DNA of 35,416 bases, from positions 1-35,416 of the forward strand of contig JANQLZ010000074.1 of NCBI GenBank assembly GCA_028280325.1, given 5' to 3'. Below the pieces are notes generated by a model. It ran no database searches. It saw only the letters and a program-made list of their open reading frames with translations, and had not been told where the DNA came from. Position numbers and translations under genes: made by a program. Each line of letters opens with the position of its first letter. Within the stretch, counting starts at the first letter, position 1. Positions 26,084-31,965 of this stretch are shown here, in pieces. This stretch comes from Bacillota bacterium (GTDB taxonomy: Bacteria; Bacillota; UBA994; PWPR01).

Positions 26084-27643
26084 TTACACCTCAGCTCCTG
26101 CACTCCAAGCTTCACAATCCCAGACTGTGGTCACAATATCCTGGTAAAACTGCGGTTCATGACAGACCAGCAGTATACTGCCCTCGTAAACCTGCAGCGC
26201 TCTTTTCAGTTCGGCTTTGGCCACCACGTCCAAGTGATTCGTCGGCTCATCGAGTACCAGAATGTTACTCGGTAAATTGATCAGTTTGCACAGCCTGGCT
26301 TTGGTCTGTTCTCCCCCGCTCAGTTTGCAAACCTGACTTGAGATATGTTTATGGGTTAAGCCACATTTAGCCAGAGCACTGCGTACCTCCCGTCTGGTCA
26401 GCTGTCGCAGACAGCTGCTGACATCATCTATTACCAGGCTGGTATTGGGGGTGTTTACCTCCTGCTCCAGATATCCCACATACTGATATTGACCAATATT
26501 TATTTGCCCGCTCAAAGGCTGAATCAGTTTCAGAAGACTTTTAAGCAGGGTTGTTTTACCTATGCCATTAGCTCCGATTAAAGCGATTTTCTGACCTCTT
26601 TCCATTTTCAGATTAAGCGGCTTAGTTAGCGGCTTCTGATAGCCAATAACTAATTCAGCTGTTTCAAAAATCAACTGAGCTGAAGGCCTGGAAAACATAA
26701 AGCTGAAGGTCGGCTGAGGACTGGTTGTGATTATTTCAATTCTTTCGATCTTATCCAGCTTCTTTTGTCTCGACTTAGCCTGTTTGGCGGTAGCAGCTCG
26801 AGCTTTGTTCCTTCTGATATAATCCTCTAGTTTGGCAATCTCTTTTTGCTGCTTGATAAACTCTGCCCTGATTTGTTTTTTATTCATCTCGTAGGACTGC
26901 AAAAACTGATTGTAATCTCCGATATATCTGACAATTTTACTATTCTCGATATGCCAAACTACATTGACAATATTATTTAAAAACCCAGTATTATGTGAAA
27001 TAATGATAAAAGCTTTTTCATACCCGGACAAAAAGGTTTTTAGCCATTGAATATGGGCTTCATCCAGATAATTGGTCGGCTCATCCAACAGCAGTATGTC
27101 CGGAGACTCCAGCAGCAGTTTACCCAGCAGCAGCTTGGTTCGCTGGCCGCCGCTCAGCTGATTGACCGGCCTGGTTAAACCCAGCTCCTTTAACCCCAGT
27201 CCCGCTGCTACTGCTTCTATTTTAGAATCGATATTAAAAAACTCATTGTTAACTAAATAATCATGCAGCTCACTGGCCTGGTGCAGGGCTTTGGTCAGGG
27301 CTGTTCCTGTCAATCTGGCGCTGGAATGATACAAGTCATTCATCACAGCTTCTTTATCATACAGCGATTGAAAGGCTGCCTGTAATACTTCTCGGATTGA
27401 TTGGTATTTGTGAAGACTAATGTGCTGGTCCAGGTAACCAAATTTAATATTATTGCTCCACTCTATTGTGCCCTGGTCAGCTAATAACTGGCCGGTTATG
27501 ATATTCATTAGTGTAGACTTGCCGATGCCATTGACCCCGACAATACCGACATGCTCGCCTCGCAGCAATCTGACAGTCGTGTCCTTAAAAATATGTTTGT
27601 CACCAAAACTATGGCTTAAGCTATTGATCGATAAAATACTCAT
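26084..27643 (-). CDS. ABC-F family ATPase (ribosome-acting)
   Basis: This 519-residue protein has two fused ATPase domains and no membrane part. The first has Walker A GVNGIGKST (36-44), signature LSGGQ (163-167) and LLLDEPTNYLD. The second has GANGIGKTT (357-365), LSGGE (441-445) and LVLDEPTNHLD. A basic coiled-coil linker (about 246-305, including RRNKARAATAKQAKSRQKKLDKIERIE) would reach the ribosomal peptidyl-tRNA site. ABC-F proteins protect ribosomes from antibiotics or rescue stalled ones. Which of these applies here cannot be told. Start context is weak (AAGAGAG). A short ORF and a hairpin lie upstream, which could form a leader. Confidence 0.92.
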   Translation of the reverse strand: MSILSINSLSHSFGDKHIFKDTTVRLLRGEHVGIVGVNGIGKSTLMNIITGQLLADQGTIEWSNNIKFGYLDQHISLHKYQSIREVLQAAFQSLYDKEAVMNDLYHSSARLTGTALTKALHQASELHDYLVNNEFFNIDSKIEAVAAGLGLKELGLTRPVNQLSGGQRTKLLLGKLLLESPDILLLDEPTNYLDEAHIQWLKTFLSGYEKAFIIISHNTGFLNNIVNVVWHIENSKIVRYIGDYNQFLQSYEMNKKQIRAEFIKQQKEIAKLEDYIRRNKARAATAKQAKSRQKKLDKIERIEIITTSPQPTFSFMFSRPSAQLIFETAELVIGYQKPLTKPLNLKMERGQKIALIGANGIGKTTLLKSLLKLIQPLSGQINIGQYQYVGYLEQEVNTPNTSLVIDDVSSCLRQLTRREVRSALAKCGLTHKHISSQVCKLSGGEQTKARLCKLINLPSNILVLDEPTNHLDVVAKAELKRALQVYEGSILLVCHEPQFYQDIVTTVWDCEAWSAGAEV

Positions 27644-29533: not shown

Positions 29534-30706
29534 CTATATCTCTATTTTAGATTTAACTATGGTAAATAGTAAATAATAGCCAAGCGATAATATACCCAAT
29601 ACTCCAAAGCCACCGAAGATTGTGAACTTAGTAGAACAATAACCAAAGGCTAAGCCTACGACAATCGTAACGAGCTTTTGACCCAGAGATTGAAATGAGT
29701 CAATAGTGGCCCTCATACTAGAGTCTATTCTGTGATGCAAATAGCTACTTACTACTGGTTCAGCTATCCCGGAGACCATATTTATCAGTACTAAAAAAAC
29801 AATACTGACAGGGCTCCTGAAGACAGCTACAAATATGAATCCCAAACCGTAGACTAAGATATTAACAGATATGAGCTGGGCAAATCTATATCGTTTAGAT
29901 AGTTTGTCCACCATTAAACTGCCTGGAATTCTGACAAAAGTGCAGAATGCCGAATACAGACCAAAATAAATAACTGGTATATTCAATCTATCTAAATAAA
30001 TCTGCCAAAATTCATCTAAGTAATTCACAGTAGCAGCTAGAAAAACCCCTGACAAAACTGCTATACACAATGCCTTACTGTTTTTGAATACTTGAAGAGC
30101 TTGAAATACATAATCCTTGAAAGGGAGAGGCTCTGTCCTACTCAATTGCTCTATGTCTACTAAAGATAGTGTTGCACCTAAAGCAATTACTGAACTTATG
30201 AGAGACAACCAATAATTAAACTCCAGGCCAAATCTGTTTGCTAAGAAGGCCCCCGATAAGGCTGCTATTAAAGCAGCGCTAAAATCAAATGCCCTTAAAC
30301 GACCGATAGTTTTCTCAAACTCATTTTCACAGCCTGCCATTTTTAGTGAATCATATAACAGTGCATTTTGAGAACCACTGACCATAGCGTTAGATATTCC
30401 TGCCAAAAAAACTATTATAGCAAAATGCCAAAAGTTATGAGCATGAATTATCAGCAGCCATTCCATACAGGTCATTAAAGCACCGATGACCATCATTTTT
30501 TTACGACTCCATTTATCAGCAATGATGCCCGTTGGAATCTCAAATAATATAACGGTAGCAGCATATATTATCTCTGCATACACCACCATTAACACGGTCA
30601 TTCCTCTTTGCTCCCAAAATAATCGCTCAATTACATAAGCAAACATCAGGTTATGAAAAAAGATATTTAGATATAGTTTTTTAATATTATTCATGTAACT
30701 CATCAT
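29534..30706 (-). CDS. MFS efflux-type transporter with translational attenuator leader
   Basis: This 390-residue membrane protein has about 12 helices and the MFS loop-2/3 signature (GIIADKWSRKKMMVIGALM, residues about 60-78). It resembles drug-efflux members of the superfamily, but the substrate is unknown. The start is one of two adjacent ATG codons (30706 or 30703) behind GGAGG. That ribosome binding site is buried in a long hairpin, and a short leader ORF lies upstream, the arrangement of antibiotic-inducible resistance genes. It is followed by its own terminator and then a WYL regulator. Confidence 0.9.
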   Translation of the reverse strand: MMSYMNNIKKLYLNIFFHNLMFAYVIERLFWEQRGMTVLMVVYAEIIYAATVILFEIPTGIIADKWSRKKMMVIGALMTCMEWLLIIHAHNFWHFAIIVFLAGISNAMVSGSQNALLYDSLKMAGCENEFEKTIGRLRAFDFSAALIAALSGAFLANRFGLEFNYWLSLISSVIALGATLSLVDIEQLSRTEPLPFKDYVFQALQVFKNSKALCIAVLSGVFLAATVNYLDEFWQIYLDRLNIPVIYFGLYSAFCTFVRIPGSLMVDKLSKRYRFAQLISVNILVYGLGFIFVAVFRSPVSIVFLVLINMVSGIAEPVVSSYLHHRIDSSMRATIDSFQSLGQKLVTIVVGLAFGYCSTKFTIFGGFGVLGILSLGYYLLFTIVKSKIEI

Positions 30707-30707
30707 T

Positions 30708-30751
30708 GCACCTCCGATATTTTTTTAATTTCTAAAAAATATTGGTGGTGC
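30708..30751 (-). promoter_or_regulatory. Hairpin hiding the MFS gene ribosome binding site
   Basis: On the minus strand GCACC-A-CC-A-ATATTTTTT (30751-30734) pairs in exact register with AAAAAATAT-C-GG-A-GGTGC (30725-30708): 16 pairs of 18 positions with two mismatches, and an AGAAATTA loop. The GGAGG of the MFS gene (30715-30711) is wholly inside the stem. Opening of the stem would be needed for translation. Confidence 0.65.
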
Positions 30752-30772
30752 TCGTGAGTTTTTAGCTAGCTG

Positions 30773-30799
30773 TTAACAAGGAGGTCTGGCATATTTCAT
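30773..30799 (-). CDS. Leader peptide MKYARPPC upstream of the MFS gene
   Basis: An eight-codon ORF has AAAGGA nine bases upstream. Its Pro-Pro codons CCT CCT give ACCTCC (30785-30780), itself complementary to the MFS GGAGGT. Stalling at Arg-Pro-Pro is plausible. An alternative frame starts at the ATG at 30830, close to the expected transcription start, and reads 22 residues (MLHNFERIYNYEICQ, then TSLLTAS) to a stop at 30762. Only one of the two need be used. Confidence 0.45.
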   Translation of the reverse strand: MKYARPPC

Positions 30800-30836
30800 A
30801 GTTATAAATCCTTTCGAAGTTATGAAGCATAAAGCC

Positions 30837-30845
30837 ATTATATCA
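30837..30845 (-). promoter_or_regulatory. Extended -10 promoter for the MFS leader
   Basis: The minus strand reads TGATATAAT, an extended -10 element. A weak -35 (TTACCT, 30860-30865) stands 17 bases upstream. Transcription would begin near 30830, giving a leader of about 125 bases before the MFS gene. Confidence 0.55.
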
Positions 30846-30888: not shown

Positions 30889-31307
30889 TTAGTTGATCTC
30901 AAATTCAGTTGTCTCCAAATTGTGATAAAACCTACCCACTTGGCTGACAAACTTAAGTACACAGTAGTCTGGATCTGTCACCCCCAGCGGATAAAATCTT
31001 TCATCCCCGGTATGCCAGAGCCGATTCTTGATATCCTGGTCATGTAAGACCTCCATTTTACCGATTAGCATAATGCCTTTAAACTGTTTATCAATAAAAA
31101 AATACAAACAGGCTTTATCATTTTCCAAAAATTGCGAGACTCTCAGCGATGATGTATTAGTTGAAAAATAAAACTCCTCTAATCCGTTTCTATCCCGGGG
31201 TTAAGCATAGCCTTAACATTGGGATAACCATCAGCATTTACCGAGCCGACAACCGTTATTTTACTATTTTCCACAAGCTCTAAAGCTAATTGCTTAACCT
31301 TCATCAT
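30889..31307 (-). pseudogene. Frameshifted pyridoxamine 5'-phosphate oxidase-family protein gene
   Basis: The intact parent would be a flavin-binding PPOX-fold protein of about 140 residues. The first part (31307 to about 31180) reads MMKVKQLALELVENSKITVV, then NADGYPNVKAMLN. The second reads NGLEEFYFSTNTSSLRVSQF, then LENDKACLYFFIDKQFKGIML, ending GVTDPDYCVLKFVSQVGRFY. The two lie in different frames. Adding one base to the C run at 31197-31200 (minus strand CCCC) restores AMLNPRDRNGLEEFYF, which matches the family pattern. A sequencing error in this homopolymer is possible. The start overlaps the MarR stop, so the two were one operon. Confidence 0.85.
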
Positions 31308-31749
31308 AGTTCTCCTCTTCGTTTGTTAAATTAGTTAAGATGTGCGCCAGAGTTTTTTCAAACTGATCTATTTCTGCTTCTGCCAGCCCTCGATAGAATA
31401 AATCCGTCATTTCCTCGGAAACCCTTTCAAACTTATCCTGTAATCTTTTACTTTTTTCCGTTAAGGAAACAATGGTTCGACGCCTGTCTGCTGTGCTGGC
31501 CTGCTTGACAATAAGGCCGCTTTTCTCTAAACGGTTTAACATACTTGTTAGCGTAGTTTTACCCAGCGCTGTCTCCCTGGCCAGTGCACTGATTGCTATT
31601 TTGTCTTTTTGCCACAGCGAGAAAATAATTCTACCCTGAGCGCTGTTTAACTCTGAAATACCGTAGTTTTTAAGCTTTTTGTCAAAGATTCTAGCCGATA
31701 ACTGTTTAACCTTTGATATTAAGAAGCCACCTTCACGTCTCTTAGCCAA
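31294..31749 (-). CDS. MarR-family transcriptional regulator
   Basis: This 151-residue winged helix protein has the MarR layout: N-terminal dimerisation helices, recognition helix region ISALARETALGKTTLTSMLNRLEKSGLIVKQ, and the wing with STADRRRTIVSLT (Asp-Arg-Arg). I choose TTG at 31749 (MAKRREGG), because AAGGAG lies six bases upstream. The frame can be read back to 31863, but that stretch contains the promoter. The promoter's spacer is filled by a palindrome, indicating self-repression. The stop overlaps the start of the PPOX-family pseudogene, its partner gene. Confidence 0.9.
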   Translation of the reverse strand: MAKRREGGFLISKVKQLSARIFDKKLKNYGISELNSAQGRIIFSLWQKDKIAISALARETALGKTTLTSMLNRLEKSGLIVKQASTADRRRTIVSLTEKSKRLQDKFERVSEEMTDLFYRGLAEAEIDQFEKTLAHILTNLTNEEENYDEG

Positions 31750-31768
31750 AGCAATCTCCTTTCTAAAA

Positions 31769-31812
31769 GTACTATATAGGAATATTATAGTACTATATAG
31801 TACTATTGTCAA
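31769..31812 (-). promoter_or_regulatory. Consensus sigma-A promoter with palindromic operator in its spacer
   Basis: On the minus strand TTGACA (31812-31807), exactly 17 bases, then TATAAT (31789-31784) is a perfect consensus. The spacer lies within the 20-bp palindrome ATAGTACTATATAGTACTAT (31787-31806). A second half-copy AGTACTATATAGG lies at 31769-31781, near the transcription start. A bound MarR dimer would block RNA polymerase. Confidence 0.8.
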
Positions 31813-31965
31813 TGTCTTAATTACCTGGTTTAAAGCGAAAAGGGCTCGCATCAACAGAAACATCAGTTATACCAGGAAGCCTATGTAATTTAACAAACAC
31901 TTATATACTTAACGTAAATTGCAAGCTATAAGTTAGGTAATAATCCACATAAGTAACTGAGGAAA

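Follow-up and report, generated by a model that had tools for sequence, protein, structure and literature searches.

How is translation of an MFS exporter gene switched on when its Shine-Dalgarno (SD) sequence is predicted to be hidden in a hairpin, and what part does the short open reading frame (ORF) just upstream play? This question is raised by a locus in a 35,416-nucleotide stretch of Bacillota DNA, analysed here as a whole and referred to as the window. A preliminary description had proposed a translational attenuator like those of drug-inducible erm and cat genes. Comparison with orthologous loci strongly supports a leader-peptide-controlled translational switch in outline, since both the leader peptide and the hairpin that hides the SD recur across Bacillota classes; how the hairpin is opened is the subject of the sections below.

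Layout of the leader, hairpin, and exporter gene

All elements of the locus lie on the minus strand. Direct reading places an extended -10 promoter element, TGaTATAAT, at 30837..30845 (a consensus match only), followed by an SD sequence, AAAGGA, at 30809..30814 and a leader ORF at 30773..30799 (ATGAAATATGCCAGACCTCCTTGTTAA; ATG AAA TAT GCC AGA CCT CCT TGT TAA). The SD-preceded start of this ORF was also found by script. The leader encodes MKYARPPC and ends at a UAA codon (30773..30775). Its position between promoter and hairpin, its own start signals, and the second anti-SD segment in its Pro-Pro codons (ACCTCC) were all as first described. A 22-residue alternative leader had also been suggested; its frame, from 30830, is present, but the frame conserved in relatives is the one ending in RPPC.

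Past the UAA, the leader frame continues through a linker, QLAKNS (CAG CTA GCT AAA AAC TCA; 30755..30772), into R-A-P-P (CGA GCA CCA CCA; 30743..30754), and meets its next stop at 30725..30727, within the hairpin loop. The R-A-P-P codons lie on the anti-SD 5' arm of the predicted hairpin (30734..30760), in which the lower stem starts from 30760 and the main stem from 30751. The 3' arm (30697..30725) carries the exporter SD, GGAGGTG (30709..30715), and the exporter start codons (ATG at 30706/30703), to which the lower stem extends. Six of the seven SD bases fall in the stem. Both the hiding of GGAGG and the count of 16 main pairs thus hold as originally claimed, but the perfect register does not: mismatches divide the pairs into runs of 5, 2, and 9. 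The folding energy corresponds to a z-score of -2.7 for 153 nt and -6.5 for the stretch beyond the leader stop. Leader and hairpin occur as one copy in their own genome, and neither the window nor ten related loci matched an Rfam family at the gathering score.

The exporter gene (29534..30706) encodes 390 amino acids and matches Pfam MFS_1 above the gathering score. The protein is weakly similar to the H+ antiporters of TIGR00900, below that model's cut-off, and a search against solved structures gave marginal MFS matches only. Upstream on the same strand lies a MarR-type regulator gene (31294-31863), near TIGR04472 (radical SAM mobile pair system) and below the model cut-off. Between this gene and the attenuator is a pyridoxamine-phosphate-oxidase-like gene remnant that appears frame-disrupted (30889-31310). 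An ABC-F ribosomal-protection-like protein (26084-27643; NF000355, just above cut-off) is a possible second ribosome-drug defence gene near the exporter; no R-x-P-x-stop leader was seen upstream of it.

Conservation of the leader peptide

Exporter relatives were gathered by protein search from three named or MAG loci, the window's own phylum, Paenibacillaceae, a Clostridia class, Bacilli, and further families and orders. Nearly all are preceded by a short SD-led ORF that ends in R-P-P-C-stop or a near variant (RPPS, RPPN, RSPC, RSPS, RAPS, RWPC, or KPPC). The resulting signal, R-x-P-[C/S/N]-stop, is retained down to about 36-50% exporter identity. Loci built like the window, which we call type I, number about 45 and come from Paenibacillaceae (the majority), other Bacilli, Clostridia, and the window's class; a variant form of the signal occurs in the type II loci described below. 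A stop codon is retained at the leader end in all loci of both types, with UAA, UAG, and UGA interchanging. Because the leader arginine is encoded by both codon families (CGN and AGR) and third positions vary, the peptide rather than the RNA alone appears to be under selection. When the last leader residue is serine, its codon is always AGY and never TCN, and asparagine is AAC, across all loci; this codon use may reflect a constraint on the P-site tRNA or simply the mutational path from TGY.

The leader peptide and the SD-hiding hairpin thus hold up in the orthologue comparison that the preliminary description had called for; homologous loci lacking both features had been named there as grounds for rejecting the reading. 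The element is absent from some exporter relatives (L007, L008, and L011). L007 (G064) and L008 (G138) are close relatives without the RPPC leader; the former is apparently coupled to its upstream gene, and the latter has a strong hairpin that leaves its SD out. The most distant type I relative (L012; about 29% identity) has the leader MYKNKGSC-stop in place of RxPC, retains RPPP in frame nine codons past the stop, and has a hidden SD.

Wider searches pointed to the same exporter loci. Among 399 genomes of the phylum, a pattern search for the RPPC leader gave no hits above chance apart from the window and its congener, and a two-motif search of 105 genomes of the Paenibacillus family matched mostly the same exporter loci. 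Sequence searches of plasmids, phages, and viral contigs found no copies of the element.

Conservation of the hairpin

The SD-hiding hairpin is more than chance according to the predicted folds. When each orthologous locus was folded separately, 42 of 45 had half or more of the exporter SD hidden (median z-score -2.9). Compensatory changes, also proposed as a check, were sought with RNAalifold: covariation was weak on the deep alignment, and in a 14-sequence clade pairing was kept in 242 of 248 cells, with double changes in only 2 of 18 pairs. The weak covariation arises because the upper stem is too diverged to align, so the per-locus folds were used instead.

Selection on the frame beyond the leader stop

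The leader frame is conserved beyond its stop codon. Of 46 type I loci, 45 carry R[A/G/S/P]PP in this frame, and none has it in either of the other two; the sole exception (L056) looks like a decaying gene. The spacing from stop to motif is 6, 7, 8, or 9 codons and changed at least seven times on the exporter tree, always by multiples of three. In-frame stops occurred in one of 45 linkers (L047, which has a second stop there), against 11.7 expected from shuffles and a minimum of three in 2000 shuffles. Fitch counts on the exporter tree gave eight changes at the first and second positions of the RxPP codons versus 67 at the third, and no residue changes in the R, P, and P. Most of the 45 loci are Paenibacillaceae, so plain sequence counts make the loci look more independent than they are; the Fitch counts remove this bias only as far as the quick tree of 80 exporters, with its several long branches, allows. 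Beyond RxPP the frame signal is gone and in-frame stops are common right after the motif, which marks the end of the amino-acid constraint. These sequence patterns indicate amino-acid selection on the frame from the leader stop as far as RxPP, which is what would be seen if ribosomes passing that stop went on translating to this motif and no further.

One rival reading is that no ribosome translates the post-stop RxPP, which would merely result from the anti-SD RNA arm (CGAGCACCUCC). The motif does overlap this arm, and an anti-SD-like sequence is CC-rich and so favours proline codons. However, base pairing fails to explain the codon pattern, because third positions are free to vary and yet are predicted to be paired almost as often (69%) as first (78%) and second (82%) positions. 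Retention of the frame through the spacing changes is likewise unexplained by RNA pairing, and in one locus (L004) the motif remains RAPP although the pairing partners of the SD lie mainly downstream of it. We therefore regard this explanation as very improbable.

The motif has a precedent in arrest peptides. RxPP with Gly, Ala, Ser, or Pro as x is a published arrest set, RAPP is resistant to EF-P, and Bacillota proteomes are depleted of RxPP (PMC12992588); how RAPP causes arrest is understood structurally (PMC10951233). The loci thus carry an arrest-type motif at the proposed stall site, but outside any continuous ORF, with a stop codon 6-9 codons ahead of it.

A stop in the +1 frame directly follows the leader stop in the window (30762-30772) and at the same place in 32 of 45 type I loci, in most as stop-NNNN-TA[A/G]; the type II loci inspected lack it. 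This conserved +1-frame stop may keep frameshifted ribosomes off the hairpin, in which case the switch would be specific for in-frame readthrough.

Position of the ribosome needed to open the hairpin

We modelled which pairing partners of the exporter start region a ribosome would cover, with its leading edge set at P-site nucleotide +15. A ribosome at the leader stop overlapped none of these partners in 43 of 45 loci and at most 29% in the other two; the mean was 1%, and half was reached in no locus. A ribosome at RxPP covered all of them in 44 of 45 loci and 85% in the remaining one (L004). Opening by stalling within the leader, the erm/cat-type mechanism first proposed, is therefore a poor fit to this geometry, and the post-stop motif is the better-placed site.

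A classical attenuator, in which a drug-bound ribosome stalls at or near R-P-P-C-stop and alone opens the hairpin, would account for the conservation of leader peptide and hairpin alike. Stalling at PPC-stop is plausible, and some arrest peptides are known to stall while a stop codon occupies the A site (PMC10987492). But besides reaching almost none of the start-region partners, a ribosome stalled there leaves the selected in-frame RxPP past the stop unexplained, and it gives no account of the type II genes, where stalling would yield no exporter. We consider the classical mechanism unlikely.

Type II loci: a stop codon inside the exporter frame

In one Bacilli family, in which 34 of 38 genomes searched have the exporter, the architecture differs. 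In every inspected locus of this family (within L068-L118), the SD-led leader, its stop, and the exporter share one frame. An example reads ATG AAA AAT ATA CGG CCG CCT TGT TAG GTT CGA CTT CGC CGG AAT ATC and on into the exporter. The interrupting signal is R-x-P-[C/S]-stop; the stop is UAA, once UAG (L084) and once UGA (L096). That the three codons swap while remaining stops indicates selection for being a stop. Protein-level conservation starts with the first codon past the stop, so that, as in readthrough genes, the same frame is open and under protein selection on either side of a conserved stop. In L082 and L108, a poly-A run stands in place of the leader start codon and may be a sequence error.

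We found no SD-preceded ATG, GTG, or TTG common to the type II loci after the stop, nor any at a shared position. Several loci have none for 15-21 codons past the stop; in L077-L083 the first possible start comes 16-21 codons in, within the first membrane segment. On these sequences, the type II exporter is apparently made only by passing the stop. Reinitiation at an unrecognised start past the leader stop would be the alternative to readthrough, and the leader stop does adjoin the exporter, as in coupled genes. The lack of a shared start position or a conserved SD, the stretches of 15-21 codons without any start, and the protein-level conservation from the first codon past the stop all speak against reinitiation, which we judge rather improbable. 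Type II exporter genes are probably mis-annotated in public genomes, either with a wrong start or as pseudogenes.

In four loci (L002, L038, L062, and L064), the readthrough frame meets no stop in the hairpin and leads on into the exporter frame; these loci are possible intermediates between types I and II. Another locus, L009, has RPYH-stop and was considered as an independent type II case; its relative L120 lacks a stop there, and we rejected it as such, leaving a second type II lineage as a weak possibility.

A readthrough-gated switch as the favoured model

We consider it probable, from the comparative sequence evidence, that the element is a readthrough-gated translational attenuator and that in type II loci readthrough yields the exporter directly. 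By default, a ribosome would make MKYARPPC and terminate at UAA, and the predicted, conserved hairpin would keep the exporter SD closed. If termination after R-P-P-C were impaired, with a ribosome-acting drug as the most likely cause, some ribosomes would read through the UAA, translate QLAKNS, and arrest at R-A-P-P, a known arrest motif here under amino-acid selection. The arrested ribosome would cover the whole anti-SD arm, freeing GGAGG for translation of the exporter. In type II loci, R-x-P-[C/S]-stop interrupts the exporter's own frame and readthrough would produce the exporter without an intervening step. As the two architectures have only R-x-P-x-stop in common, the stop following this peptide is the likely sensor.

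The inducer likely acts on the ribosome, and ribosome drugs that raise readthrough would be the predicted candidates. Aminoglycosides and macrolides raise readthrough in E. coli reporters (PMC10959953), and Paenibacillus itself makes lariocidin, a miscoding, ribosome-targeting lasso peptide (PMC11451635). Some observations count against the readthrough model: UAA is usually the least readthrough-prone stop codon (PMC10959953), one linker (L047) contains an extra in-frame stop, some relatives lack the element, and the possible second type II lineage (L009) is weak.

The main alternative within the same mechanism is a non-drug signal. Readthrough and arrest would then report on termination capacity (release factor shortage, starvation, or ribosome stress), and the exporter would serve in a stress response. 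The use of all three stops implies a sensor not specific to one release factor, in keeping with this idea, and metabolic stress is reported to raise readthrough in a work that appears in the reference list of PMC10959953. On the other hand, the gene under control encodes a putative MFS drug exporter, and the conserved feature is an R-x-P-x peptide, not merely a leaky stop. We regard such a signal as possible, if less likely than a drug.

For the broader reading, we see the case as evenly balanced on present sequence comparisons: these loci may represent a class of bacterial switches in which the conserved stop after R-x-P-[C/S/N] itself senses ribosome-acting drugs, its readthrough either feeding an SD-opening arrest motif or making the exporter directly. 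If this is true, these exporters are predicted to handle drugs that disturb termination or decoding. The element also offers a ready natural readthrough reporter.

Comparison with known systems

We found no earlier description of this element in the open-access literature, and there is a serious possibility that the stop-codon sensor merits its own class. Its nearest counterparts are the erm and cat attenuators, with which it shares a short leader ORF with its own SD, a hairpin predicted to hide the SD of a resistance-type gene, and opening by a ribosome. Unlike in those systems, a ribosome at the leader stop is modelled to reach almost none of the start-region partners: the proposed opening site lies beyond the leader stop, with R-x-P-[C/S/N]-stop followed by an in-frame RxPP. 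The sister type II architecture, which has neither such a hairpin nor a separate start, also sets it apart.

The RAPP/RxPP arrest peptides (ApdA, ApdP, SecM-like peptides, and the CruR uORF) similarly place R[A/G/S/P]PP so that the stalled ribosome exposes or protects downstream RNA. They are found upstream of protein-localization genes or in copper sensing (CruR), with RxPP in an ordinary ORF, whereas here a stop codon precedes the motif and the peptide that holds it has about 18-20 residues.

In 2013, Gupta et al. reportedly described how macrolides induce frameshifting at the ermC leader. There too, recoding carries the ribosome past the leader stop into the hairpin; the difference is that the frame shifts at ermC, while here it stays the same, and the selected frame past the stop runs up to an arrest motif. 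Frameshifting under ketolides raises ermC expression (mentioned in PMC10959953). Human AMD1 (PMC13025110) likewise combines stop-codon readthrough with ribosome pausing downstream, but it is eukaryotic, the pause occurs at a second in-frame stop, and it is not an SD-hiding switch. If the proposed model is true, the RxPP arrest motif would become tied to drug sensing, and translational attenuation would gain a further sensing principle: regulated stop-codon readthrough as the on-switch of a putative resistance gene.
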